Shown here in pieces: positions 4,385 through 59,857 of a stretch of DNA of 64,000 nt (the stretch's first letter is position 1; each line of letters starts with the position of its first letter). Source of the stretch: Bifidobacterium criceti. GTDB taxonomy: Bacteria; Actinomycetota; Actinomycetes; Actinomycetales; Bifidobacteriaceae. A program made the translations under genes and the position numbers. The stretch lies in contig NZ_MVOH01000006.1 of NCBI RefSeq assembly GCF_002286935.1, positions 310,001 to 374,000 on the forward strand, given 5' to 3'. The notes under the pieces were generated by a model. The model was given only the letters and a program-made list of their open reading frames with translations, was not told the DNA's origin and did no database searches.

Positions 4385-6085
4385 TCAGCTGTTGAGTGGT
4401 TTGACGAGCGGGAACGTGATCGTCTCGCGGATCGTCGCGCCGGTGAGCGCGATGAGCAGACGGTCGATGCCCATGCCCATGCCACCCGCGGGCGGCATGC
4501 CGACGCCGAGCGCCTCAAGGAAGTCCTCGTCGATGTCACACGCCTCCTCGTCGCCCGCCAACGCGTCCTTCGCCTGCGCGACGAAGCGTTCGCGCTGCAC
4601 GATCGGGTCGTTGAGTTCGGAGTAGCCGGTCGCGAGTTCGAAGCCGCGCACGTAGAGGTCCCATTTCTCGACGACGCCGGGCTTGCTGCGGTGCGCCTTG
4701 ACGAGCGGCGACGTCTCGACGGGGAAATCACGGACGAACGTCGGCTCGTAGAGTTTGTCCTCGTAGAAGTGTTCCCAGAGGTGTTCGACGAGTTTGCCGT
4801 GGTTCTCGACGTCGTCGCGTTCGACGCCGAGTTTGTCGGCTATGCTGCCGAGTTCTTCGACGGACGTGTCCGGGGTGATCTCCTTGCCGAGCGCTTCGGA
4901 GAGCGAATCGTACATGCTCATCTGCTTCCATTCGCCACCGAAGTCGTATTCGGTGCCGTCGAGGAGCGTGACCTTCGTCGAACCGAAGACGTCGATCGCG
5001 GTCTTCTGGACGAGTTCCTTGACGAGTGCCGCGATCGTGTCGTAGTTGCCGTACGCCTCGTAGGCTTCGACCATCGTGAACTCGGGTGCGTGCGTCGCGT
5101 CGACGCCTTCGTTGCGGAAGTCGCGGTTGATTTCGAACACGCGGTCGATGCCGCCGACAAGGCAGCGCTTGAGGAAGAGTTCCGGCGCGATGCGCAGATA
5201 GAGGTCGAGGTCGAACGCGTTCATATGCGTCGTGAACGGGCGTGCGGCAGCGCCGCCGTGGATCGTCTGGAGCATCGGCGTCTCGACTTCGAGGAAGTCG
5301 TGTTCCTCGAACGTGTGGCGCAGCGACGAGACGGCCTTCGAACGGTTGCGCACCATGTTGCGGATCTTCTCGTCCGCGATCATGCCGATGTACGGCTTGC
5401 GCGTGCGCGTGTCCTCGTTGAGCTCCTTGTGCAATGTCGGCAGCGGCTGGAGCGCCTTCGACGCGATCGCCCATTCGTCGGCGAACACGGACAGTTCGCC
5501 GGTCTTCGACGCGATCACACGGCCTTTGACGAACAGGTGGTCGCCAAGGTCGACGAGCTGCTTGAAGAGCTTGAGCGAATCGGCGCCGATCTGCTTCTTC
5601 GAAAGCATCGCCTGGATCGTCGTGCCGTCGCCCGCCGCGAGCTGCACGAAGCACAGGCCGCCGGCGTTGCGGATGAACAGGACACGGCCCGCGATGCCGA
5701 CCGTGTCGCCCGTCTCCGCGCCCGGCTCAAGCTTGCCGTCCCATTTCGCGCGCACCGCCTCGATCGTGTCCGTCACATCAAGCGAGACCGGATACGGGTT
5801 GAGGCCGTCCTTGAGCATCATCGCGCGTTTCGCGACGCGCATCTGCACCTGCTCCGGGTGCGCGAGCGGCCCGAACTCTTTGTTCGACGGATCGACGGCC
5901 TCGTCAAGCGTCGCACCCTCGTCGATGCGGCGTGCGATCGTCTCATCCTGCTTGAGCAGCAGTTCGGCACGTTCGACGGTGCTCATCGACGGCGCGGCGA
6001 CCTCCTCGTCCTTGACGACGACGGTCTCGTCGACAGGCGCATCGGTGGTCGGTTCGTTCTCGGTATTCACGTTGTGTTCGCTCAT
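4385..6085 (-). CDS. lysS: Lysyl-tRNA synthetase, class II
   Basis: Charges tRNA-Lys. After an acidic N-terminal extension of about 60 residues comes an OB-fold anticodon-binding domain (VGIAGRVLFIRNAGGLCFVQ) and the class II core. Motif 2 is visible in FRNEGVDATHAPEFTMVEAY and motif 3 in GMGMGIDRLLIALTG near the C-terminus. Length is 566 residues. ATG at 6085 was chosen because the acidic MSEHN start follows GAGGAC; the frame is open further upstream, including another ATG at 6130, so the exact start is open by some 15 codons. Confidence 0.93.
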   Translation of the reverse strand: MSEHNVNTENEPTTDAPVDETVVVKDEEVAAPSMSTVERAELLLKQDETIARRIDEGATLDEAVDPSNKEFGPLAHPEQVQMRVAKRAMMLKDGLNPYPVSLDVTDTIEAVRAKWDGKLEPGAETGDTVGIAGRVLFIRNAGGLCFVQLAAGDGTTIQAMLSKKQIGADSLKLFKQLVDLGDHLFVKGRVIASKTGELSVFADEWAIASKALQPLPTLHKELNEDTRTRKPYIGMIADEKIRNMVRNRSKAVSSLRHTFEEHDFLEVETPMLQTIHGGAAARPFTTHMNAFDLDLYLRIAPELFLKRCLVGGIDRVFEINRDFRNEGVDATHAPEFTMVEAYEAYGNYDTIAALVKELVQKTAIDVFGSTKVTLLDGTEYDFGGEWKQMSMYDSLSEALGKEITPDTSVEELGSIADKLGVERDDVENHGKLVEHLWEHFYEDKLYEPTFVRDFPVETSPLVKAHRSKPGVVEKWDLYVRGFELATGYSELNDPIVQRERFVAQAKDALAGDEEACDIDEDFLEALGVGMPPAGGMGMGIDRLLIALTGATIRETITFPLVKPLNS

Positions 6086-6440
6086 GTCCTCGTTCTCGTT
6101 CTTCGTGTGCTTCGCGGCGTCGGTGCGCATGTGCGCGGCATGCGCTGGATGTCGGGGGTTCGAGTACCCCATCGCCCAATCGTGCGTATGCGTGCGGGCG
6201 CCGCGGCGTGGACTTGGTATAGCGCACCAGTGTAGCCACCCGCCACTACCTATAGATAGATACTGTTGCTGGATACTACCCAAGATACCTGTTCACGATA
6301 CATGTGCGATTCCTTGTGCCACCTCATGGTGTCCCCTGTATCCACCGCCGCACGTCGTCGTACATCATCGCACCACTGCACCGCACACTTACGTACGTAC
6401 GGCGTCGGCACCGCTGCACAACATCTGCGACACGCCGAAG
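6086..6440. other. Intergenic region upstream of lysS
   Basis: No gene is supported here. The stretch 6240-6300 is locally AT-rich, with several TAT-A elements read on the minus strand, and probably holds the lysS promoter, although no single -35/-10 pair stands out. The open frame overlapping lysS upstream of 6085 has no protein-like character. Confidence 0.5.
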
Positions 6441-6493: not shown

Positions 6494-6570
<77 letters not shown>

Positions 6571-6603: not shown

Positions 6604-6641
6604 CCGCACCCCGGTACGCTTACGCAGCCGTCAGCGTACCG
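6604..6641. repeat. Copy A of a 38-bp intergenic palindromic element
   Basis: CCGCA, three bases, CGGTACGCT, twelve bases, AGCGTACCG. The same layout with identical spacing recurs at 29039, 38911 and 56946. This copy follows the tRNA-Pro terminator directly. Confidence 0.8.
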
Positions 6642-6680
6642 CGCCACGGAATAGCACGCAGACCGGTACACAACTCCACC

Positions 6681-6959
6681 GTTCCGTCCCGTTTGGCAGC
6701 CACCACCTACCAACACACCCGCAAACGGGGCCGTTGCCGTCCCGTTCCACAGTTCCGACCAACCAACCCACCCATTCCGTCCCGTTTGGCAGACGCCACC
6801 TACCAACCCACCCGCAAACGGGGCCGTTTCCGTCCCGTTCCACAGTCCCGACCAACCAACCCACCCGTTCCGTCCCGCTTGGCAGACGCCATCTGCCAAC
6901 CCACCCGCACACAGGGCCATTTCCGTCCCGTTCCACAGTTCCGACCTGCCAACCCACCC
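6681..6959. repeat. 93-bp direct repeat, three tandem units
   Basis: Units begin at 6681, 6774 and 6867, each with TTCCGTCCCG(T/C)TTGGCAG near the start, and diverge only slightly. Each unit is itself two related halves sharing TTCCGTCCCGTT and ACCAACCCACCCG. The array ends 10 bases before the fetB stop. It is open on the minus strand because 93 is a multiple of three, but the translation is a Trp/Gly/Val-rich repeat with no family match, so it is treated as non-coding. Confidence 0.9.
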
Positions 6960-6969
6960 GCACACGCCG

Positions 6970-7869
6970 CTACCGCGCCGACATACGCCGGTCGTCGGCG
7001 GCCGCACGCTTGAGTTCGGCCGCGCTTTCGTCGGGATGGACGTCCTTGCGCAACCGGATGAGGTCCTTGAGGCTCAGTTGTTTCGCCGGTTCCGGCACGA
7101 AATACCGGTCATACGAGATGAAACAACGTTTGTAGATGAGCGCGATGATGATCGAATCCGCGACGAGCGTAAGCGCCGCGACGGCCGCGAGGATGACGAA
7201 CTGGTATTTCGCCGCGCTCACGGGACTCTTCCCCGCGATGATCTGCCCGGACATCATGCCGGGGATCGTCACGATGCCGCTCGACGCGAGCATCGCGACC
7301 GACGGAAGCAGCCCGAGGCGTATCGACGAGATCATCGACGGTTTCGCCGCCTCCCATTTCGTCGCGCCGAGCGCAAGCAACGTGTTCACTTCCGCGTACC
7401 GTTCGCGCATCGATTCGAAGAACCTGCTCAGGCCAAGCGCGAGCGCGCTCACGGTGTTGCCGAGGAGCATGCCGGTGAGGGGCACGACGAGCTGCGGCGC
7501 ATACCACGGTTTCGGACGCACGATGAGTTCCGCGACGATCGCGAGCATGAGCAGCATCGTGACGACGAGCGCGAGCAGTACGATGCCGACGAGGCCTTTC
7601 GGCGCACCCGTCGCGCGTCCCATCGTGATCTGCACCGCGGCGAGCAGCATGAGCGCGATGAGTCCGATGACGAGCCACACATTGTCCTGACGGATCACGT
7701 ACTGCAGGATGAAGCCCATCGCGAGCAGCTGCACGAGCGAACGCGCGGTCGCCCATACGAGCGATGTCGCGACGCCTGTTTTCATCAACGCCGAGATGCC
7801 CGCCGCGATGAGGACCATGACGACGGCCGCGACGAGTCCCCAGATATCGATATCGAAATATCCGTTCAT
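6970..7869 (-). CDS. fetB: FetB/UPF0014-type ABC transporter permease
   Basis: Permease subunit of the FetAB-type exporter, linked to iron efflux and oxidative stress resistance in enterobacteria. The 299-residue protein has about seven membrane helices and family hallmarks such as MGRATGAPKGL and a long block ending GMMSGQIIAGKSP. ATG at 7869 lies four bases from the fetA stop, so the two genes are co-transcribed, ATPase first. A charged C-terminal tail of about 40 residues extends beyond the last helix. The substrate here is inferred from family only. The gene ends against the tandem repeat array. Confidence 0.85.
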   Translation of the reverse strand: MNGYFDIDIWGLVAAVVMVLIAAGISALMKTGVATSLVWATARSLVQLLAMGFILQYVIRQDNVWLVIGLIALMLLAAVQITMGRATGAPKGLVGIVLLALVVTMLLMLAIVAELIVRPKPWYAPQLVVPLTGMLLGNTVSALALGLSRFFESMRERYAEVNTLLALGATKWEAAKPSMISSIRLGLLPSVAMLASSGIVTIPGMMSGQIIAGKSPVSAAKYQFVILAAVAALTLVADSIIIALIYKRCFISYDRYFVPEPAKQLSLKDLIRLRKDVHPDESAAELKRAAADDRRMSAR

Positions 7870-14166: not shown

Positions 14167-16317
14167 ATGGCGCACGATGACGAGGACGATCTGCTCGCGA
14201 AACTGACGATGTTCAGCGCAGGCGCGCAAGGACATGCGACCGATGCGCACGCGCATGGCACGGACATGCATGGCGCGGACGTGCACGATGCGTACGGCGG
14301 CGCGGATGCGCACGGCGCGGACGACGGCAAGGACGACGGATTCGACGTCGACCGTTTCCTCGACGGTCTTGACGCCATCTTCGCGCGCCACGAGGCGGCG
14401 ACGAAGGCGGAACCGTACCTCCTTGACGCGATGGACGCCGCCGAGAACGCCGGAGACATACCCGGCCTGCTCACCGTGCTCAACGAGACGATGGGATTCT
14501 ACCGTTCGCAATCGCGGCACCAGGACAACCAGTGGATCATCCAACGCGCGATCGAACTCGCGTTGCGCCTTGGATTCGAAGGCACCGAAGCGTGGGCGAC
14601 GACGCTCATCAACGCGGCGACATCGCAACGCGCGGCCGGCAACTACGCCCAGGCCGAAGACCTCTACACGCAGGCGCTCGCATGCGCCGCACACGTCTAC
14701 GGACCTGACGATCGACGGCTCGCGGCGCTCCACAACAACCTGTCGATGCTCTACAGCGAGACGGGGCGCACGGCACAGGCGGTCGACGAACTGCGCACGG
14801 CACTCGCGATCCTCGAACACGGCAGCGTGGACACGGCAACCGACGTCGACATCGCCTCGACATGCGCGAACCTCGCGCTCGCGCTGCTCACGGCACAATC
14901 CGCGGATACGGACACGGCCGCGACGCTCGACAAAGCCGCCGCATGCGCCGGACGCGCGCTCGCGATCTACCGGAACGCGCACGCCGAAGACAGCGCCCAT
15001 TACGCGTCCGCGCTCGCGGCGGCCGCACAGGTCGCGTTCGCGCAGCGGCGTTTCGCGGATGCCATGCACTATTATGAACGCGCACTTGGCATCATCCGCA
15101 TCTGCTACGGCGAGGACACCGATTATTACCGCATCACCGCGGCCAATCTCGATGAGGCGCGCAACGCGCTCGGCAGGGCGGGGCATGCGGCTGCGGATGA
15201 TGCGCATACGAACGGCGTGGCCAAGAGCACGAAGACGGCGAATGAGGCGGTTGATGGCACCACCACAACGGACGCCGCAGCAGCGACCGCGCGCACGAAG
15301 GAGCGCCGCAGCGGCATGCGGCTTGCGCGCGACTTCTGGCTCGCCTACGGCAAACCGATGGTCGAGGAACGCTATCCGCGGTATGCGGGCCGTATCGCGG
15401 CGGGACTCGTCGGCCCCGGGTCGGAATGCTTCGGCTTCGACGACGAGACGTCCGAGGACCATGATTTCGGCGCGAGGTTCTGCCTGTGGCTCACCGACGA
15501 CGACTATGCGGCCATCGGCGCACCACTGCAACATGACTACGAAGCGCTCCCGCGCGATTTCGACGGCGTCTCGCGCTCCGCGACATCACCGCGCGCGCAA
15601 GGCGACGGCAGACGTGACGGCGTGTTCCCGACACACGGGTTCTTCACGTCGCTCACCGGGTATCCGACCGCACCCGACGCCGACGAGCCCCATCTGTGGA
15701 TGATGCTCGACGAGGCGACGTTGGCGAACGCGACGAACGGCCGCGTCTTCGCAGATCCGCTCGGCGAGTTCTCGAAGACGCGCCGATCGTTCCGCACGCC
15801 GCCCGACGATGTGCGGCTCGCGTGGATCTCACGCGGGCTCGGCATGGTCGCGCAAGCCGGCCAATACAATGTGCCGCGCATGCTCGCGCGCGGCGACGGC
15901 GCCGCCGCATGGCTGTGCATCGACGAATATGTGATGGCCGTCTCGTCGCTCGTGTTCCTGCTCAACAACCCGGTGACGGTCGGCTACGCACCGTACTACA
16001 AATGGCGTTTCGCCGCATTGCGCGCGCTGAGCCGGCGTGCGGGCATGCGGCTGACCGAAGTGTGCGGCGAACTTGAGGAACTGTTGCGTCATGCGTCCGC
16101 CGCATGCTTCGGCGGCGCCGGATTCGGTGAAGGCGGTGCCGGCGCCGCACCACATGTGCAGGCGGCCGAATCCCTCATCGGCACGATATGCGCGCAGATC
16201 GTCACCGAACTCCAACGGCAGGGACTCACCGACTCGGACGACGACTTCCTCGAATGGCAGCGCCCCTATATCGAATCGCACATCCACGATCCCGCACAAT
16301 GCCTGCACAGCATCTGA
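14167..16317 (+). CDS. TPR protein with DUF4037 nucleotidyltransferase-like domain
   Basis: A 716-residue cytoplasmic protein. A His/Asp/Ala-rich tail (about 20-55) precedes a tetratricopeptide region (about 90-340) with repeats such as GNYAQAEDLYTQALACA and RRFADAMHYYERALGI. After a linker, the C-terminal half carries a DUF4037-type domain with GSECFGFDDETSEDHDF, which fits the G[GS]-x(9-13)-D-x-D pattern of nucleotidyltransferase-fold proteins. FCLWLTDDD follows. ATG at 14167 has GGGAG upstream. A DUF4125 gene follows after 51 bases; those families often sit together. No biochemical role is established to my knowledge. Confidence 0.75.
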   Translation: MAHDDEDDLLAKLTMFSAGAQGHATDAHAHGTDMHGADVHDAYGGADAHGADDGKDDGFDVDRFLDGLDAIFARHEAATKAEPYLLDAMDAAENAGDIPGLLTVLNETMGFYRSQSRHQDNQWIIQRAIELALRLGFEGTEAWATTLINAATSQRAAGNYAQAEDLYTQALACAAHVYGPDDRRLAALHNNLSMLYSETGRTAQAVDELRTALAILEHGSVDTATDVDIASTCANLALALLTAQSADTDTAATLDKAAACAGRALAIYRNAHAEDSAHYASALAAAAQVAFAQRRFADAMHYYERALGIIRICYGEDTDYYRITAANLDEARNALGRAGHAAADDAHTNGVAKSTKTANEAVDGTTTTDAAAATARTKERRSGMRLARDFWLAYGKPMVEERYPRYAGRIAAGLVGPGSECFGFDDETSEDHDFGARFCLWLTDDDYAAIGAPLQHDYEALPRDFDGVSRSATSPRAQGDGRRDGVFPTHGFFTSLTGYPTAPDADEPHLWMMLDEATLANATNGRVFADPLGEFSKTRRSFRTPPDDVRLAWISRGLGMVAQAGQYNVPRMLARGDGAAAWLCIDEYVMAVSSLVFLLNNPVTVGYAPYYKWRFAALRALSRRAGMRLTEVCGELEELLRHASAACFGGAGFGEGGAGAAPHVQAAESLIGTICAQIVTELQRQGLTDSDDDFLEWQRPYIESHIHDPAQCLHSI

Positions 16318-16368
16318 CAATCGACACCCACACAACAGCACACGGATACGGACACGATGGAGCATCAT

Positions 16369-17034
16369 ATGAACGACCAACCAACGGACGACCAGTCAAT
16401 GGACGATGCACGACGCGCCACGATCGAGCAGATCGTGGCGGCTGAATGGGACATGTTCCAGCACACGGTGAACGAAGGCGGCCGTGCGTCATGCCAAGGC
16501 AACAAACCGATGTTCACACTCATGCGCACAAGCCAGTTCATGACATGGCCCGACGCGCTGCTCACATCGTATCTGCAAGACCTTGAGGCCGCGGCACATG
16601 ACGGACGCAACCTCGTCGAGGAGAAATACGCGCGCATGATGGCGTCGACCGAACCGGAACGCTACGGACGCGACGTCGCGCCCTACATCCCGACGTTGGA
16701 CGAGGCACGCGTCAGGCAGCAGGAACGCATCATCGCGCGGCAGGTCGCCTGGGCGCGCACATTCATGGAGCACTACCCCCACATCGGCGCGAACATGCGC
16801 GTATTGACGACCGATCAGGACACACCGGAGCAGACATCGTACGAGACATATCTGCGCGGCGAACTCGGCACGTACCGGCAGCATACGCTCGACCTGTACG
16901 AACGGTTCGTCGAGGACACCGCACGACGCGGCGGCAACATCGCCGAGGAGACGGTCGCGTGCACGATGCGCCTCATCGGCATCGATGCACTCGACGAAGC
17001 GGAACGTGACGAAGCGGAACGCGCGGCGTGGTAG
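16369..17034 (+). CDS. DUF4125 family protein
   Basis: A 221-residue soluble, mainly helical protein. The N-terminal half has the family-like pattern IVAAEWDMFQHTVNEGGRAS followed by CQGNKPMFTLMRTSQF. ATG 16369 is preferred over ATG 16357 because GGAG (16359-16362) sits six bases before it. It follows the TPR-DUF4037 gene closely on the same strand, implying an operon and a joint function. An RTFMEH segment around residue 129 loosely resembles the R-x4-H motif of HEPN domains, but this is weak. Function unknown. Confidence 0.7.
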   Translation: MNDQPTDDQSMDDARRATIEQIVAAEWDMFQHTVNEGGRASCQGNKPMFTLMRTSQFMTWPDALLTSYLQDLEAAAHDGRNLVEEKYARMMASTEPERYGRDVAPYIPTLDEARVRQQERIIARQVAWARTFMEHYPHIGANMRVLTTDQDTPEQTSYETYLRGELGTYRQHTLDLYERFVEDTARRGGNIAEETVACTMRLIGIDALDEAERDEAERAAW

Positions 17035-28375: not shown

Positions 28376-29020
28376 TCACAGCGGGAACAGCTTGAACACC
28401 GTCTCGACGGACGCCTTCGGACCGGTCATCCGCGCGCACACGGTGTCGTTCCTCCATACGGCCGTCGCGCCGCCGTCGTCCGCATCGTCGACGACGACGT
28501 AGGCGCCCGCGTTCGCACCGTTGACCTTGACGTTGCCTGACGCGAGCTCATGGCCGTCGAGGTGCTTCGTGAGCGCATTGTATTGCGTGAGCGCCTCCTC
28601 TTCGCTCGACCACTGTCCGACGGTGACGTGCACGTCGCGCTTCGCGTCACCGGTCGAATAGGTGAGCGCGTACGCTTCGAGCGGCGACGCGGCGTCCCAT
28701 GTGTCGGTCGCCTGCGCGTCCGTGCGCGCGAAATTCGACACGTCGTCGGGCATCGCCTTGAGCAGTTCCGACGCGTCCGCAGGCAGCGCCTTCGCGTCGA
28801 TCGTCGGCGATGCCGACGCGACCGACGTCGGCACCTCCATCGGCTGCGGCACGGTGCGCACGGCCCATCCCGGCCATGCGAACGCACTGATGATCGCGAG
28901 CACGATGACGGCGGCGGCCACGAACACGACGACGCGAGCCTTGCGCGCCGTCGACGAGGTCTGCGCGGCCTGCGCCCGCTGGTTCGACGTCTTCCCGGAA
29001 CTGAGTGCCATAGCTGCCAT
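28376..29020 (-). CDS. Hypothetical membrane-anchored extracytoplasmic protein
   Basis: Not recognised with certainty. The 214-residue protein has a basic N-terminus, one helix (about 28-50, VVVFVAAAVIVLAIISAFAW), and a predicted exported domain of about 150 residues with a Ser/Thr/Pro-rich stalk. The domain alternates beta-like strands (VTVGQWSSEEEALTQYNAL, GAYVVVDDADDGG, VCARMTGPKASVETVFKLF). The layout is type II membrane topology. The start may be ATG 29020 or the in-frame ATG at 29011. It is divergent from radA, with a copy of the 38-bp palindromic element between them. Confidence 0.65.
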   Translation of the reverse strand: MAAMALSSGKTSNQRAQAAQTSSTARKARVVVFVAAAVIVLAIISAFAWPGWAVRTVPQPMEVPTSVASASPTIDAKALPADASELLKAMPDDVSNFARTDAQATDTWDAASPLEAYALTYSTGDAKRDVHVTVGQWSSEEEALTQYNALTKHLDGHELASGNVKVNGANAGAYVVVDDADDGGATAVWRNDTVCARMTGPKASVETVFKLFPL

Positions 29021-29038: not shown

Positions 29039-29084
29039 CCGCAGGGCGGTACGCTCACGGCCTCCTCAGCGTACCGTCGTGCGG
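29039..29084. repeat. Copy B of the 38-bp palindromic element (most symmetrical)
   Basis: CCGCA-GGG-CGGTACGCT, twelve bases, AGCGTACCG-TCG-TGCGG. In this copy the outer CCGCA is mirrored by TGCGG, giving a 46-bp two-part palindrome. It lies between the divergent membrane-protein gene and radA. Confidence 0.8.
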
Positions 29085-29146: not shown

Positions 29147-30595
29147 ATGGCGAAAAGCAATGTCAGTTATATGTGCACCGAATGCGGCTGGACGGGTGCG
29201 AAATGGTTCGGACGGTGCCCCGAATGCGGCCAGTGGGGCACAATCGAGGAGTTCCACGAAGCGCGGCCGAGTGCGTCGGCGCAGCGTACGGCCGCGCCCG
29301 GGCGCACATCGCGCACGGTGCCGACGGTCGTCGCCGCGAGCGCCGCCCAACCGATCACCGAAGTGGACACGGCGTCGGTCTCGCGTGTGACGACGGGATT
29401 CGGCGAATTCGACCGCGTCCTCGGCGGCGGCATCGTGCCCGGCTCCGTCGTGCTCATCGCGGGCGAACCAGGCATCGGCAAATCGACGTTGCTCCTCGAA
29501 ACCGCAGGCAACATCGCACGCGACACCCCATCGGGCACCGTCCTGTACATCTCCGGTGAGGAGTCGCAGGCGCAGGTGCGGTTGCGCGCGTCACGCATCC
29601 ACGCGGTCGAGGGGAACCTGCTGCTCGCGTCGACGACCGACCTCGCGACGGCGCTCGGCCTCATCGAACAGCACAAACCGGCGCTCGCGATCGTCGATTC
29701 GGCGCAGACGATCGTCTCGCAGGACGTCGATGGCATCTCGGGAGGCTCGACGCAGGTGCGTGAGGTCGCGAGCGCGCTCATCGACACGGCGAAGACGCTT
29801 GACGTGCCCGTGCTGCTCGTCGGCCATGTCACGAAGGACGGTTCGATCGCCGGTCCGCGCACGCTTGAGCATCTCGTCGACGTCGTCTGCCAGTTCGAAG
29901 GCGAACCGCAGACGGCGCTGCGGCTGCTGCGCGCCGTGAAGAACCGCTTCGGACCGACCGACGAGGTCGGCTGTTTTGATATGAGTGGTGTCGGCATCGA
30001 GGAGGTCGCCGATCCGGCCGGACTGTTCCTTTCGTCGGGTGAGACGGCCGTCGACGGCACGTGTGTCACGTTCACGCTCGACGGACACCGGTCGCTCCCG
30101 GTGGAAGTGCAGGCGCTTGTGACGAATTCGGTCCTGCCGACGCCGCGTCGCGCCGTCAATGGCGTCGACGCGAACCGTATCGCGATGCTCGTCGCCGTCC
30201 TCTACCGCCACGGTGGCCTCGCATTGCTCAACCAGGACCTGTATATCTCGACGATCGCGGGCGGTGTCGCAAAGGAGCCGAGCTGTGACCTCGCGATCGT
30301 CGCCGCGCTTGCGAGCGCCGCGACGAACACGCCTATCGCGCGTTCGACGTGCGCGATCGGTGAGATTTCGCTCACGGGGCAGGTGCGGCCGGTGCCGCGC
30401 CTCGAACACCGTCTGCGTGAGGCGGCGCGCCTTGGGTTCACGACGGCTGTTGTGCCGCCGTTGCGCGCGCCGCTTACGATTCCGGGGTTGCGTATCGTCG
30501 AGGTGCGTTCGCTGCGTGACGCGCTCGACGCGCTCACGTTGACGAAACGTGGCTCGGGGCGTTCACGCGCACAGAACGCCGACGTGGCTGAGTGA
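29147..30595 (+). CDS. radA: DNA repair protein RadA
   Basis: A branch-migration ATPase of recombinational repair, 482 residues. In order: a four-Cys zinc finger (CTECGW and CPECGQ, residues 10-27), a RecA-like ATPase with Walker A GEPGIGKST and Walker B-like ALAIVDSAQT, the RadA-specific KNRFG motif, and a C-terminal Lon-protease-like domain lacking a need for protease activity (GEISLTGQVRPVPRLEHRLREA). Full family length. Its stop is 13 bases from the convergent ribF stop with no hairpin between. Confidence 0.95.
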   Translation: MAKSNVSYMCTECGWTGAKWFGRCPECGQWGTIEEFHEARPSASAQRTAAPGRTSRTVPTVVAASAAQPITEVDTASVSRVTTGFGEFDRVLGGGIVPGSVVLIAGEPGIGKSTLLLETAGNIARDTPSGTVLYISGEESQAQVRLRASRIHAVEGNLLLASTTDLATALGLIEQHKPALAIVDSAQTIVSQDVDGISGGSTQVREVASALIDTAKTLDVPVLLVGHVTKDGSIAGPRTLEHLVDVVCQFEGEPQTALRLLRAVKNRFGPTDEVGCFDMSGVGIEEVADPAGLFLSSGETAVDGTCVTFTLDGHRSLPVEVQALVTNSVLPTPRRAVNGVDANRIAMLVAVLYRHGGLALLNQDLYISTIAGGVAKEPSCDLAIVAALASAATNTPIARSTCAIGEISLTGQVRPVPRLEHRLREAARLGFTTAVVPPLRAPLTIPGLRIVEVRSLRDALDALTLTKRGSGRSRAQNADVAE

Positions 30596-37941: not shown

Positions 37942-38841
37942 ATGCAGACACCTTCGGCATTCCTCCACCACCCCACACGCCTCGCAACTGCGGCGCTCGC
38001 ACTCATGCTCGCAGTCCTTCCGACGGCATGTACGACACCGCGTGTCGAAGGTCGGGCCGAATCCGAACACAGCGCCGACGTCTGCGCCACACTCAACACG
38101 AGGGCGAAGGCCATATCGGCGCGCGCGGACGCCGACGGCACACCAACGCTCGTCCGGTACACGGCGTCCGACGAAGCGTCGCATGCATGGCTCGACGTCG
38201 CGATCCAATGCCCCACGCACTTCGCCGAAGGCACACTGCGCAGCGCACAGGCACAATATGACGCGCGCAATCTCGCACGCTCACTCGGCATCGGTTACGA
38301 ACCGCTCACCGTGACACGTCTCGACGACGTCGACACACTCACCATAGGCGGCGACACACTCGCACGGATCGCGCTCGCCGAGGACCGCGCGGGATTCGCG
38401 ACGGAAGTGCTCGCGGGACGGTTCACCGATGGCGTAGCCGACGACGCGCGCACCGCGGCGCTCACCGCGGACGGCGACCTCCTCGCGATGAGCAACGACC
38501 ACAAAGAGACCGCGTCACGCCTCATGTATCTCTCGAACGGCGCGAAGGACCTGCGGCGCAAAGTGTACGCGACCGAGGAACTGACGAAGGACAGCGCAAC
38601 CGCGATCGATCCGGCGACCGGATTGCGCGCGAACACCGTCGCCGTCCTCGAAATCGATTGCGTCCGAGACGAGCTCACGGCATTCGACGAGAGCGCACAC
38701 ATCGACGACGCGACGAGGAACGACGAGGAACGCGCGCAGATGGACGCCGCACTTCTGCAACTGTCGATGCTCATCGCGACACACGCATACACGGCGTTCG
38801 CGCTCGGCTACCCCTCGACCGACGCCGCCCTCTTCAGCTGA
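37942..38841 (+). CDS. Hypothetical exported protein, probable lipoprotein
   Basis: Not recognised. A signal peptide is clear: HHPTRLATAALALMLAVLPTAC, with a Cys near residue 30 that could be lipidated, although LPTAC is an imperfect lipobox. The mature part (about 270 residues) is Ala/Asp-rich and helical, with no recognised catalytic motif. It is divergent from nusA with 73 bases between. Codon use is like the neighbours. Downstream come a copy of the 38-bp palindrome and tRNA-Ser. Confidence 0.65.
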   Translation: MQTPSAFLHHPTRLATAALALMLAVLPTACTTPRVEGRAESEHSADVCATLNTRAKAISARADADGTPTLVRYTASDEASHAWLDVAIQCPTHFAEGTLRSAQAQYDARNLARSLGIGYEPLTVTRLDDVDTLTIGGDTLARIALAEDRAGFATEVLAGRFTDGVADDARTAALTADGDLLAMSNDHKETASRLMYLSNGAKDLRRKVYATEELTKDSATAIDPATGLRANTVAVLEIDCVRDELTAFDESAHIDDATRNDEERAQMDAALLQLSMLIATHAYTAFALGYPSTDAALFS

Positions 38842-38910: not shown

Positions 38911-38948
38911 CCGCAGGACGGTACGCTTACGAAGCAGCCAGCGTACCG
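38911..38948. repeat. Copy C of the 38-bp palindromic element
   Basis: CCGCA-GGA-CGGTACGCT, twelve bases, AGCGTACCG, followed by TCGTATGG. It lies between the lipoprotein gene and the tRNA-Ser(CGA) promoter. Confidence 0.8.
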
Positions 38949-38975
38949 TCGTATGGACGACGACATGCCGATGAT

Positions 38976-39261: not shown

Positions 39262-40278
39262 CTACGCCTCCGGCAGCGTGCGGCGCGCGCGGATCCGCTC
39301 GGCGCGTGCGGCGAGCTCGTCGTCGGCAGGGTACGCGATGTGTTCGAGCGTGAGCCCTTGGGGCGCGATCGGCCCCGTCGAACCTTCGCGCAACGGCACC
39401 GACATCTTGCGCGCGAACCAGTCGATATCGCGTTTGCCGATGCCCACCTGTACGCACGCCCCTACAAGCGAACGCACCATATTGCGCGCGAACGCATCGG
39501 CGACGATCGTGAAGCACAACAGCCCCGATTCGACGGCCGGCGTCGCATACCACTCCCCCGCGGCAACGTCCGCACCCGAACCGTCCGCACCTTCAGCAGC
39601 CGCGGCGCGCGCAGTGGCGGCATCCGCACCCTCTGCGAACAGCGGACGCGTCGGCACACGCCGCCAATGCGCGCGTTTGACGTCGCGTATCGTCGTCCCT
39701 CCCGGATTCGCGATCGCGAACGAACCAAAATCATGCAATCCCAACGTGAGCGCGGCGGCTTCGTTCATGCGCGCGACGTCGAGTTCGCGGTCGGTGCGCC
39801 ATACGAAGTCCTTGAGCCGCGGATCCCACGGTGTGCGCGCGTCGCACACACGGTACACATACGTACGTTCGAGCGCGGAGAAGCGCGCGTCGAACCCGTC
39901 GGGTGCGACGCTCACGTCGTGGATGGCGATGTCGTCGGGCATCATCCGCGACAGCCGCGTCGCGAACGCGGACACCGGACCGAGTCTCATATGTCCGACG
40001 CACCGCGCGAGCGCGTCGTCGGGAACGTCGAGATGGCATACCTGATGCGACGCGTGCACGCCCGCATCGGTGCGTCCGGCGACGGTGAGACGGTACACCG
40101 TGCTGTCTTCGGATATGCCATCATCGGATGTGCCATCCCCACATGTGCCGCGATGCGCGCCAAGTATCCGATTGATTGCGTTCTCGATCGTCCCCTGCAC
40201 CGTCCTGCCCTTGGGTTGCACGGCCCATCCGTGGAATCCGGAGCCGTTGTATGCCAGATCGATTCGTAAGCGCGTCAC
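39262..40278 (-). CDS. truA: tRNA pseudouridine-38/39/40 synthase
   Basis: Modifies the anticodon stem of many tRNAs. The 338-residue protein opens RLRIDLAYNGSGFHGWAVQP, has the catalytic Asp in VAGRTDAGVHASHQV, and ends with ARNMVRSLVGACVQVGIGK. Two insertions enlarge it: a Gly/Asp/Ser stretch near residues 45-60 and an Ala/Gly-rich stretch near 220-245, giving about 60 residues over the norm. The start is GTG 40278. It follows rplQ, the common arrangement, but a terminator stands between them. Confidence 0.94.
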   Translation of the reverse strand: MTRLRIDLAYNGSGFHGWAVQPKGRTVQGTIENAINRILGAHRGTCGDGTSDDGISEDSTVYRLTVAGRTDAGVHASHQVCHLDVPDDALARCVGHMRLGPVSAFATRLSRMMPDDIAIHDVSVAPDGFDARFSALERTYVYRVCDARTPWDPRLKDFVWRTDRELDVARMNEAAALTLGLHDFGSFAIANPGGTTIRDVKRAHWRRVPTRPLFAEGADAATARAAAAEGADGSGADVAAGEWYATPAVESGLLCFTIVADAFARNMVRSLVGACVQVGIGKRDIDWFARKMSVPLREGSTGPIAPQGLTLEHIAYPADDELAARAERIRARRTLPEA

Positions 40279-56063: not shown

Positions 56064-56912
56064 ATGCCGACACAAGATACACGCACCGCAACGCCGACGC
56101 GCGCGCACAGGACACGTTCGGCCCGCGATTGGGTCTCGACCGAGCCGGGCGCATGGGCGATCGTCCTGTTCCCGTCACTCGCCGCATGGGTCGCGAGCGG
56201 TCCCACATGGACGTCGACGTGGCTCGTCGCACTGTGGGCCCTGTGTTATTGTGTGCAGTTCACGGCGGCACGGCTGTGCAAATCGCATATGCGCGCACGG
56301 TATGCCCTCCCGACGCTCGTCTACGCCGCCGCGCTCGCCGCGGCCGGTGTCCCCTTCGTCATCCTCCATCCTGGAATCCTGATATGGGCACCGCTCTACG
56401 TCGTCCTATGCGCACTGTCGCTGCTGTCATCATGGCTGCGCCGTGAGCGCAGTCTATGGGCGAACCTGTGCGCGGTGCTCGCGGCGTCGACGATGGCAAT
56501 CGTCATTGTCCCCTTCGGTTCGAAATACGCGGCGACGTCGGCATCGGCGACCGACCACTTCCCCACCCACTTCCCCAATGCGCACGATGCGGCGATGTTC
56601 ACCGGACTCGGCATCGAAATCGCGGCCGGCTTCGCGCTCGCGTTGTTCGGGTCGGTCCTCTTCGTCAAGACGATGATCCGTGAACGCGGCAGCCGCGTCT
56701 ATCTGCACGCGAGCTGGACGTACCATGCGCTCCTCGTCGCGGTTGGTTACCTCGACGACTGGGCGTACATGGTGCTCGCGCTGCTGCTGCTCGCGCGCGC
56801 GGTCGCGCTGCCGCTCATCGCACGACGCAGGAAGGTCCCCGCGAAAGTCGTCGGCATCACGGAGACGATCGCGAGCCTCCTCATGCTCATCCTGATCCCC
56901 GTAGGCGCCTGA
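56064..56912 (+). CDS. YwiC-like membrane protein
   Basis: The 282-residue protein has about eight hydrophobic helices after a Thr/Arg-rich N-terminus. STEPGAWAIVLFPSLAAWVA near the first helix recalls the PxEHGAW motif of YwiC-like proteins, with His replaced here by Gly in EPGAW. YLDDWAYMVLALLLLARAVA lies toward the C-terminus. ATG 56064 is chosen over TTG 56055, although neither has a strong ribosome-binding site. YwiC itself is linked to nitrate metabolism genes in Bacillus; no such genes are nearby and the function here is unknown. Convergent with adhE. Confidence 0.7.
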   Translation: MPTQDTRTATPTRAHRTRSARDWVSTEPGAWAIVLFPSLAAWVASGPTWTSTWLVALWALCYCVQFTAARLCKSHMRARYALPTLVYAAALAAAGVPFVILHPGILIWAPLYVVLCALSLLSSWLRRERSLWANLCAVLAASTMAIVIVPFGSKYAATSASATDHFPTHFPNAHDAAMFTGLGIEIAAGFALALFGSVLFVKTMIRERGSRVYLHASWTYHALLVAVGYLDDWAYMVLALLLLARAVALPLIARRRKVPAKVVGITETIASLLMLILIPVGA

Positions 56913-56945: not shown

Positions 56946-56983
56946 CCGCACAACGGTGCGCTGAGCGGACCGTCAGCATACCG
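56946..56983. repeat. Copy D of the 38-bp palindromic element
   Basis: CCGCA-CAA-CGGTGCGCT, twelve bases, AGCATACCG: the spacing is exact but each arm carries one substitution. It lies between the YwiC-like gene and the adhE terminator. Confidence 0.7.
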
Positions 56984-57010
56984 GGGTGGGTATTCATATG
57001 GAATATATAC

Positions 57011-57079: not shown

Positions 57080-59857
57080 TCAGATGCGCTGCGACGCTTC
57101 CTCGGTCGCGTCGACGCCTTCACGTTCGACGCGGATCTTGTGTCCTTCTTCCTGGGAGACGCCGTAGTACGCGGCGATCGCGATGTCCATCATGTCCTGG
57201 ATCTGCGGGATGCGCGGGTTCGCGGGGGCGCACTGGTCCTCGTACGCGCGCATGCCGATCTGTTCGAGGATCGACCAGAAGTAGTCTTCGTCGACACCGC
57301 AGTCCTGGAAGCTCTTGTTCATGCCGAGCTTGTTGTCGCGGTAGTCCTCGACGGCCTTCGCGAGGTTCTCGACGCCTTCCGCAGCGGTCTTGCCCGGGTC
57401 GATGCCGAGGTTCTTCGCGATCTCCTGATAGCGTTCGGGGGCGATGTACTTGTTGTACTTCGGCCACGACGTCGGCTCCTGGGGGACCTGTCCGTTGTAG
57501 CGGATGACGTACGGCAGCAGGATCGAGTTCGTGCGTCCGTGCGCGATGTGGCACAGCGCGCCAATCGTGTGCGCCATCGCGTGGCACATGCCGAGGAACG
57601 CGGAGCCGAACGCCATGCCGGCCATCGTCGCGGCGTTGTGCATCTTCTCCTGTGCCTTCGTCTTCGCGACGCCCGGTTCGCTGTTGACGGACTCGGCGAG
57701 GTTGTCCCAGATGAGCTTGGCCGCGTGGAGCGCCATGCCGTCGGTGAAGTCGTTCGCGTAGACGGAGACGTACGCCTCCATCGAGTGCGTGAGCGCGTCG
57801 AAGCCGGCGTCCGAGGCGAGGCGGCGCGGCTGCGTGCGTGCGAGCACCGGGTCGACGATCGCGACGGACGGCGTGAGCGCGTAGTCGGTGATCGGGTACT
57901 TGTAGCCGGTCTTGTGGTCGGTGATGACGGCGAACGGCGTGACTTCGGAGCCGGTGCCCGACGACGTCGGGATGCACACGAGCTTCGCCTTCTTGCCGAG
58001 CGGCGGGATCTTGAACGCGCGCTTGCGGATGTCGAAGAACTTCTCGCGCACGTCGGAGAACGCGATTTCCGGGTGCTCGTAGAGGAGCCACATGATCTTC
58101 GCCGCGTCCATCGGCGAGCCGCCGCCGACCGCGATGATCGTGTCCGGTTCGAATTCGTCGCGCATCATCGCGGCGCCGCGCTCGACGGTCTCGACGCTCG
58201 GCTCCGGCTCGACGTAGTCGACGATGCGGAACGTCACGCGGTTCGAACGCGCGCGCAGCTGGTCGATGACCTTGTCGACGATGCCGAGCTGTTCCATGAC
58301 CTTGTCGCACACGATGACGGCGCGCTCGATGCCGTACATGTCACGCAGGTACTTGATCGCGTTCGGCTCGAAGTAGGTCTTTGCCGGGATCTTGAACCAC
58401 TGCATGTTGTTGTTCCTCCGAGCGATGCGCTTGATGTTGAGCAGATTGATGGCCTGGACGTTGCCGGAAACCGAGTTGCCCCCGTAGGAGCCGCATCCGA
58501 GCGTGAGCGACGGCGCGATCGAGTTGTAGATGTCGCCAATGCCGCCGAGCGAGCTCGGCTGGTTCCAGATGATGCGGCATGCGTGCATGCGCAGGCCGTA
58601 TTCACGCACAAGGTCGTCGTTGTTCGTGTGGATCGCCGCCGTGTGGCCGGCGCCGTGCTTGAGCATCTCCTCGCACATCTCGAAGCCCTGTTCTTTGTCC
58701 TCGAACTTGAGCACGGCGTGCACGGGGGCGAGCTTCTCCATCGTGAGCGGTTCGTTCTCGCCGACTTCGGCGCATTCGGCCGCGATGATCGTCGCGTCCT
58801 CGGGGATCTCGAATCCCGCTTCGTGCGCGATGTACTGCGGCGACTTGCCCGGGACGACCGAGTTGAGCTTCGGCGTCTGCCCCGAGTACGCGGTGCAGCC
58901 GAACATGTACTGTTCGAGCTTCGCCTTCTCCTCGTCGTTGACGAAGTACGCCTTGCGGCGCTTGAGTTCCTTGACGAGCGGATCGTAGATGTCCTTGTGC
59001 GCGATGATCGCCTGCTCGGTCGCGCAGATCATGCCGTAGTCGAAGTGCTTGGACAGGATCAGGTCGTTCGCGACGCGCTGGACGTCGACGTTGGCGTCGA
59101 CGTAGGCCGGGGCGTTGCCGGCGCCGACGCCGAGCGCCGGCTTGCCGGAGGAGTACGCGGCCTTGACCATGCCCGGGCCGCCGGTCGCGAGGATCGTCGC
59201 GATGCCGGGGTGCTTCATGAGCGCGCCGGTCGCCTCGATCGACGGATGCTCGATCCACTGGATGCAGTTCTCGGGGGCGCCCGCCTCGATCGCCGCGTCG
59301 CGCACGATGCGCGCCGCCTCGACGGAGCTCTTCTGCGCGCCCGGATGGAAGCCGAACACGATCGGGCAACGCGTCTTGAGCGAGATGAGCGACTTGAAGA
59401 TCGCCGTCGACGTCGGGTTCGTGACCGGGGTCACGCCCGCGACGACGCCGACGGGTTCGGCGACTTCGTCGATGCCGAGGACGTCGTCCTCACGGATGAT
59501 GCCGACCGTCTTCTGCCCGGCCATGTAGTTCGTGACATGCTCGCACGCGAAGATGTTCTTCGTCGCCTTGTCCTCGACGAGACCGCGTCCCGTTTCATCG
59601 ACCGCCATCTTGGCGAGCACGAGGTGCTTGTTGAGCGCGGAGACGGACGCCTTCGCGACGATGCGGTCGACCGTCTCCTGGTCAAGCTTCTCGAATTCGT
59701 CGAGCGCCTGCTTCGCTTTCGTGACGAGCGCGTCGACTTCGGCCTGTGCGGCCGCTTCCTTGTCCACAACAGGCGTCGCGGCCGGTGCGTGCTTCTCGGC
59801 TTCCTTCACGTCCTGTGCAGGGGCCTTCTGCGCATCGTCCTTGCGTGCTTCTGCCAT
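57080..59857 (-). CDS. adhE: Bifunctional acetaldehyde-CoA/alcohol dehydrogenase
   Basis: Reduces acetyl-CoA to ethanol with two NADH, the main electron sink of fermentation; AdhE proteins polymerise into spirosomes. The 925-residue protein has an Ala/Lys-rich tail, an aldehyde dehydrogenase half (about 60-480; cofactor site GPGMVKAAYSSGKPALGVGA, catalytic Cys in YGMICATEQAIIAH) and an iron-dependent alcohol dehydrogenase half (about 495-910; GGGSPMDAAKIMW and the metal His in GMCHAMAHTIGALCHIAHG). Both active sites look intact. ATG 59857 follows AGGAGG at six bases. Divergent from a ROK regulator over 444 AT-rich bases. Confidence 0.97.
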   Translation of the reverse strand: MAEARKDDAQKAPAQDVKEAEKHAPAATPVVDKEAAAQAEVDALVTKAKQALDEFEKLDQETVDRIVAKASVSALNKHLVLAKMAVDETGRGLVEDKATKNIFACEHVTNYMAGQKTVGIIREDDVLGIDEVAEPVGVVAGVTPVTNPTSTAIFKSLISLKTRCPIVFGFHPGAQKSSVEAARIVRDAAIEAGAPENCIQWIEHPSIEATGALMKHPGIATILATGGPGMVKAAYSSGKPALGVGAGNAPAYVDANVDVQRVANDLILSKHFDYGMICATEQAIIAHKDIYDPLVKELKRRKAYFVNDEEKAKLEQYMFGCTAYSGQTPKLNSVVPGKSPQYIAHEAGFEIPEDATIIAAECAEVGENEPLTMEKLAPVHAVLKFEDKEQGFEMCEEMLKHGAGHTAAIHTNNDDLVREYGLRMHACRIIWNQPSSLGGIGDIYNSIAPSLTLGCGSYGGNSVSGNVQAINLLNIKRIARRNNNMQWFKIPAKTYFEPNAIKYLRDMYGIERAVIVCDKVMEQLGIVDKVIDQLRARSNRVTFRIVDYVEPEPSVETVERGAAMMRDEFEPDTIIAVGGGSPMDAAKIMWLLYEHPEIAFSDVREKFFDIRKRAFKIPPLGKKAKLVCIPTSSGTGSEVTPFAVITDHKTGYKYPITDYALTPSVAIVDPVLARTQPRRLASDAGFDALTHSMEAYVSVYANDFTDGMALHAAKLIWDNLAESVNSEPGVAKTKAQEKMHNAATMAGMAFGSAFLGMCHAMAHTIGALCHIAHGRTNSILLPYVIRYNGQVPQEPTSWPKYNKYIAPERYQEIAKNLGIDPGKTAAEGVENLAKAVEDYRDNKLGMNKSFQDCGVDEDYFWSILEQIGMRAYEDQCAPANPRIPQIQDMMDIAIAAYYGVSQEEGHKIRVEREGVDATEEASQRI

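Follow-up and report, generated by a model that had tools for sequence, protein, structure and literature searches.

A stretch of 64 kb from Bifidobacterium criceti (the window) contains four copies of a 46-bp intergenic palindrome, or dyad, that occurs 92 times in the 2.16-Mb genome (62% G+C) and has sister dyads in other members of the genus. With moderate confidence, we interpret the dyad as a REP-like, lineage-diversifying site for a putative dimeric protein, positioned after gene ends. A protein-binding site was one of three options raised in a first-pass annotation of the window, alongside a structured RNA and a REP/MITE-like mobile element, and it is the best supported because the half-sites mutate independently of each other and the spacing between the arms is fixed.

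Two ~23-bp half-sites (CCGCA.S..CGGTACGCT.AS.) face each other across a fixed gap, and in this model a protein acting as a dimer or as two separate copies would read each half-site through two boxes separated by about one helical turn. The sites lie just after gene ends, above all between convergent genes, and are gained and contracted locally by recombination in steps of 52 bp. As 52 bp corresponds to five helical turns, the bound proteins would stay on one face of the DNA. The inner core ACGSTNAS is retained across the genus and the outer box is swapped lineage by lineage, so that the sites of each species look unique. The bound protein might act in chromosome topology or in insulation of 3′ ends. 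A role in topology is suggested by analogy with the binding of gyrase by BIMEs and, if correct, would make the dyad a dedicated chromosome-structuring site in bifidobacteria.

Anatomy, copy number and genomic position of the dyad

The four copies reported in the first-pass annotation, with arms that start 21 bases apart, are all present in the window (Table 1), and the pattern that describes them has no match in 100 dinucleotide shuffles of the window. The mirrored outer box noted in copy 2 (copy B) completes the full dyad, and the fourth copy does carry one change in each arm. Across 81 copies, the consensus is CCGCA-SNN-CGGTACGCT-N12-AGCGTACCG-NNS-TGCGG. These copies, which underlie the site statistics given here, were collected with at most 3 mismatches from 727 kb of stretches that were partly picked around known sites. 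In this set, 12 bases separate the arms in 77 cases, with any other length occurring in at most 3. In the pooled half-site profile, the CCGCA box and the arm carry information, as does, more weakly, an AS(G) motif in the loop; positions outside CCGCA reach at most 0.46 bits. Summed by hand from this profile, the dyad holds ~52 bits, far above what a regulator would need for ~100 sites in 2 Mb. Common descent of the copies may therefore explain part of the conservation, and the excess leaves room for a contribution from a mobile element.

Table 1 Coordinates of dyads and other intergenic repeats, given in the window unless an L-numbered stretch is named
Feature	Position	Strand	Structure	Setting
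Dyad copy 1	6604..6649	none	arms at 6612-6620 and 6633-6641, with a degenerate right outer box	between two genes on the minus strand, 4385-6172 (lysine--tRNA ligase-like) and 6970-7869 (FetB-like permease); directly preceded by a tRNA gene (6494-6567) with a terminator-like hairpin
Dyad copy 2 (copy B)	29039..29084	none	complete 46-bp form with the outer boxes CCGCA and TGCGG	divergent gap, 28376-29020 (-) and radA (29147-30595, +)
Dyad copy 3	38911..38956	none	right outer box altered to TATGG	convergent gap, 37942-38841 (+) and truA (39262-40278, -)
Dyad copy 4	56946..56991	none	one change per arm, non-compensatory; right outer box lost	convergent gap, 56064-56912 (+) and adhE (57080-59857, -)
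Largest dyad array	L030 14654-15070		nine units; five further units at 15814-16022	
Inverted dimers	L014 13432-13513; L014 19840-19921; L016 3367-3448; L023 9311-9392		near-identical sequence, ~100 bp	
Further inverted dimers	L026 18138-18219; L017 3005-3082			
Period-93 family	6671-6960; L019 11149-11318; L021 13621-14017 and 14804-15045; L024 11252-11494 and 16902-17153; L025 333-642		tandem, 40 plus 53 bp	intergenic
51-52-bp families	L030 673-941, 2126-2591 and 4319-4626; L016 17451-17637 and 18820-19093; L025 2145-2623; L039 8964-9142		tandem; recurring CCGCA/TGCGG box	intergenic

Scanning the genome with at most 2 mismatches across the 18 arm bases yields the 92 copies, compared with 0 for a reversed control pattern. 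Further copies thus exist well above chance, and the earlier extrapolation to well over a hundred per genome was roughly right. The intergenic location seen in the window also holds more widely, with 78 of the 81 copies lying between genes predicted by a simple home-made codon model, despite a coding fraction of 85%. One perfect dyad, at L040 15781-15810, falls inside a predicted gene (14329-16392, -). Gaps that hold dyads comprise 14 convergent, 10 divergent and 22 tandem ones, drawn from 58 convergent, 76 divergent and 243 tandem gaps of at least 60 bp in the sampled stretches, and the density of dyads is highest in convergent gaps. Where the flanking genes are in tandem, the dyad is nearer the 3′ end of the upstream gene in 20 of 22 cases (p = 1.2e-4), with medians of 33 bp for the distance to that gene's stop codon and 189.5 bp for the distance to the start of the following gene. 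The genes that flank dyads are mostly housekeeping genes, with no recurring regulator and no candidate binding protein found among them. A few flanking genes recur between species, at what we judge to be approximately the chance level. The adhE gene next to copy 4 encodes a bifunctional AdhE, which, like the G+C content and a phosphoketolase domain, fits a Bifidobacterium.

Arrays and sister dyads across the genus

Many dyads are single, and others form tandem arrays. Of 33 pairs of consecutive copies separated by less than 100 bp, 27 are offset by 52 bp. A similar spacing recurs among relatives. When intergenic segments with a 16-of-20 match were counted at each lag, 12 of 20 sampled genus members besides B. 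criceti had segments at 51-53 bp, for a total of 36 compared with ~2.7 expected from other lags. Four outgroups together gave a single such segment, equal to the expectation from their other lags. Some of these families lack the core described below, for example TGTCYRAAAAATC...GATTTYNRGACA in genomes G058, G075 and G027, and we therefore do not claim a single homologous family for all of them. A helical-phasing analysis over all lags gave a strong 10.5-bp signal that was driven by the 52-bp arrays and their multiples. The signal vanished when one lag was taken per segment and multiples of 52 were removed, and we make no claim of phasing beyond the 21- and 52-bp spacings.

One orthologous convergent gap captures a step in the evolution of an array. 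The gap has two units in G068 and one in G073, with an exact 52-bp difference in sequences that are otherwise 94.5% identical, which shows gain or loss of a unit by recombination. The arms are retained at this gap in G059, where the loop differs and a flank has diverged, which suggests constraint on the arms. Neither the four loci of the window nor the comparison of G068, G059, G073 and G035 provided a clean empty site or insertion, with orthologous gaps being too diverged or not cleanly empty.

The exact sequence of the dyad is specific to its species. Among 100 other genus members, four have one match each at 2 mismatches; a longer pattern has one match each in two of 111 genus members; and five sampled genomes of the order outside the genus have one match each, all of which is the chance level. 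An exact scan for the arms in 84,980 species genomes found seven stretches, four of which belong to a different palindrome in Arthrobacter. The arms have no match in viral contigs, nor does the DNA around copy B in phage records. The class of dyad, in contrast to its exact sequence, is common to several genus members, and extending the scan to related species, as the first-pass annotation had proposed, found the original pattern only at chance level and sister dyads with a shared core. Sister dyads in which CCGACG replaces CGGTACG occur at 0 mismatches in 11 other genus members, with 3-31 copies in eight of them, and in several the distance between adjacent copies is 51 or 52 bp.

The dyad of B. 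criceti and those of about ten relatives have in common the inner core ACGSTNAS-N6-STNASCGT, in which ACGST lies 11 bp from the dyad centre in the relatives as in the window. The core occurs 54 times in G035, 32 in G059, 30 in G068, 23 in B. criceti, 18 in G073, 9 in G087, 8 in G101 and 7 in G024, compared with 0-2 for the reversed control. Outside the core, the arms follow lineage: CTTCTRCCG in G035, G068 and G059, with a second type, CAAACTGGTT, forming arrays at 52 and 64-67 in G035; CAAACTACCG-like arms in G101, G024, G012 and G098; CCAAACCG in G082 and G087; and ATTCATCC-like arms in G083 and G051. Copies at 2 mismatches number 76 in G068, 61 in G059 and 53 in G073. The combination of a shared core and spacing with differing outer arms makes the outer sequence lineage-specific. 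A broader possibility, which we put forward only tentatively and think unlikely, is that these are genus-wide chromosome-organising sites that keep the core and the 51-52-bp spacing and have the outer half-site rewritten genome-wide in each lineage as it tracks a fast-evolving DNA-binding protein. The sister dyads provide a natural series for finding a candidate binding protein by matching changes in the sites to changes in proteins, and dyads could possibly be used as species markers.

Other repeats occupy similar DNA. A second intergenic tandem family has a period of 93 and a motif like GTCCCGTTCCGCAGACC...ACCAACCCACCCGCAAACG (Table 1), with G027 (L097) carrying a diverged relative at the orthologous position and G066 (L083) a 94-bp version. 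The other 51-52-bp tandem families listed in Table 1 differ from the dyad in sequence.

Constraint on the arms and competing explanations

Distant copies of the dyad are 0.90 identical in the arms, 0.43 in the loops and 0.32 in the outer flanks, which places the constraint on the arms. The form of this constraint bears on whether the dyad is a structured RNA or a bidirectional terminator at gene ends, with a hairpin of 9 plus 5 bp, a possibility that we consider unlikely. As single strands, all four copies in the window form stable folds (-23 to -32 kcal/mol, z of about -3 to -5), although any such dyad would do so, and the preference for 3′ ends and convergent gaps would suit a terminator. 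However, the nine arm pairs contain 0 double compensatory changes compared with 74 one-sided changes, and Watson-Crick pairing in them equals the expectation for independent halves. In G024, G087, G101 and G012, a C-C or G-G mismatch occupies one stem position in 22 of 31 dyads, more than the 14.7 expected under independence. A functional RNA stem would show the opposite pattern, and both observations therefore count against a selected RNA hairpin. Rfam has no match at the dyads, matching only tRNA and SRP RNA. Of 162 dyad flanks, 6 have a TTTT run in the 12 nt next to the dyad, compared with a background of 2.2%, which is no clear enrichment, and dyads also occupy the divergent gaps and form arrays of up to nine units. 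Accordingly, the earlier remark that not every copy suits a simple terminator role stands, even though most lie near 3′ ends, and the structured-RNA option retains its good folding but not the covariation or Rfam match. Compensatory changes were seen in a different context, between the two units of inverted dimers (for example L017 3005/3053, CGGTATGAC...GTCATACCG, and L026 18138/18190), where we infer that hairpin-templated repair could be their source. One such dimer, when folded, gives a near-perfect hairpin of ~100 nt.

Copies might instead have spread by transposition as non-autonomous mobile elements of the REP or MITE type, with the dyad serving as the recognition end for a putative transposase and its conservation reflecting what that enzyme needs. 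This reading is possible but doubtful. It would account for ~100 scattered copies confined to one species, for the information content in excess, for the near-identical inverted dimers at several loci (those starting at L014 13432, L014 19840, L016 3367 and L023 9311) and for the REP-like placement near 3′ ends (compare PMC3733652). Yet the genome, which is 99.9% complete, has 0 matches to the Y1_Tnp/RAYT transposase domain (PF01797), which was found in 5 of 14 control genomes, so that the REP-associated tyrosine transposase sought on the earlier suggestion is not there. Moreover, no clean empty site appeared among the orthologous gaps examined, loops as dissimilar as those of distant copies are unlike the product of recent copying, and in the one array compared across orthologous loci, the difference is a tandem unit rather than an insertion. 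Of the REP/MITE option, the distribution is borne out, the transposase is absent and no clean insertion was seen in the gaps compared. Alternatively, the dyad could belong to a neutral minisatellite (VNTR) that drifts in relaxed intergenic DNA, its 52-bp step arising from slippage or recombination. The several other 51-53- and 93-bp tandem families in similar DNA and the unit gained or lost between sister species agree with such drift, which is nonetheless improbable given that many copies are single with arms that stay alike as loops and flanks diverge, that the gap between arms is constant at 12, and that the inner core is retained between species whose outer arms differ. Least probable, and very much so, is a core site for a tyrosine recombinase, with inverted arms about a variable 6-bp centre. 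XerCD/dif sites have an 11-6-11 layout, and in most relatives exactly 6 variable bases do separate the inverted arms of the core, but there are ~100 copies per genome and the centre is one base shorter in some dyads of G024 and G012 (27-mers).

Comparison with known repeat systems

REP and BIME elements with GTAG or CGTC tags occur in enterobacteria, Pseudomonas, alphaproteobacteria and other bacteria. They are short intergenic palindromes present in many copies, close to 3′ ends and between genes in convergent or unidirectional orientation, where they form dimers and clusters (PMC3733652; PMC2817692). A bias toward 3′ ends is described for REPs (PMC3733652); BIMEs bind gyrase and IHF, and REPs bind Pol I (PMC2817692). 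The dyad, numerous, intergenic and 3′-proximal, with dimers and clusters of its own, fits the broad description of a REP-like element. It differs in being symmetric and 46 bp long, with no conserved unpaired tag and no Y1/RAYT gene, in having arms that are not upheld by compensatory change around a variable 12-base loop, and in forming direct tandems at 52 bp, with a core shared and an outer arm switched across one genus. The half-site profile has no fixed 4-nt tag of the GTAG type outside CCGCA. Nor does the dyad have the CGTC tag, 8-9-bp stem and 4-5-bp loop of CGTC-REPs, a kind that has no transposase, with 12 bases between its 9-bp arms and no tag. By the features tested, it is therefore REP-like but belongs to neither the GTAG/RAYT nor the CGTC superfamily. 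Bifidobacterium is mentioned in neither of the two papers on REPs (PMC3733652, PMC2817692), and we found no description of the dyad family in this genus in a search of mainly openly accessible literature. REP-like palindromes are best described in Gram-negatives, with the GTAG kind tied to the RAYT transposase; the dyad adds an actinobacterial genus with a RAYT-free family in which the core and spacing persist and the outer recognition sequence changes by species.

Mycobacterial interspersed repetitive units (MIRUs), tandem repeats of 46-101 bp dispersed on an actinobacterial chromosome with varying numbers of units (PMC3914561), resemble the dyad in unit length, dispersion and unit-number variation, the comparison resting on unit length and dispersion. 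Dyads with constrained arms are not described for MIRUs in that paper, and here many copies are single. Finally, the Arthrobacter palindrome (MAG Pcu381_bin21; L005 1514, L008 2172, L010 569 and L011 5922) has exactly the same 18 arm bases and N12 but is a 57-bp palindrome (AATCGGAGTGGGTTCGGTACGCT...), for which no arrays at 52 bp were observed. The match is probably convergence by chance, as we estimate that ~four chance matches are expected in that collection.
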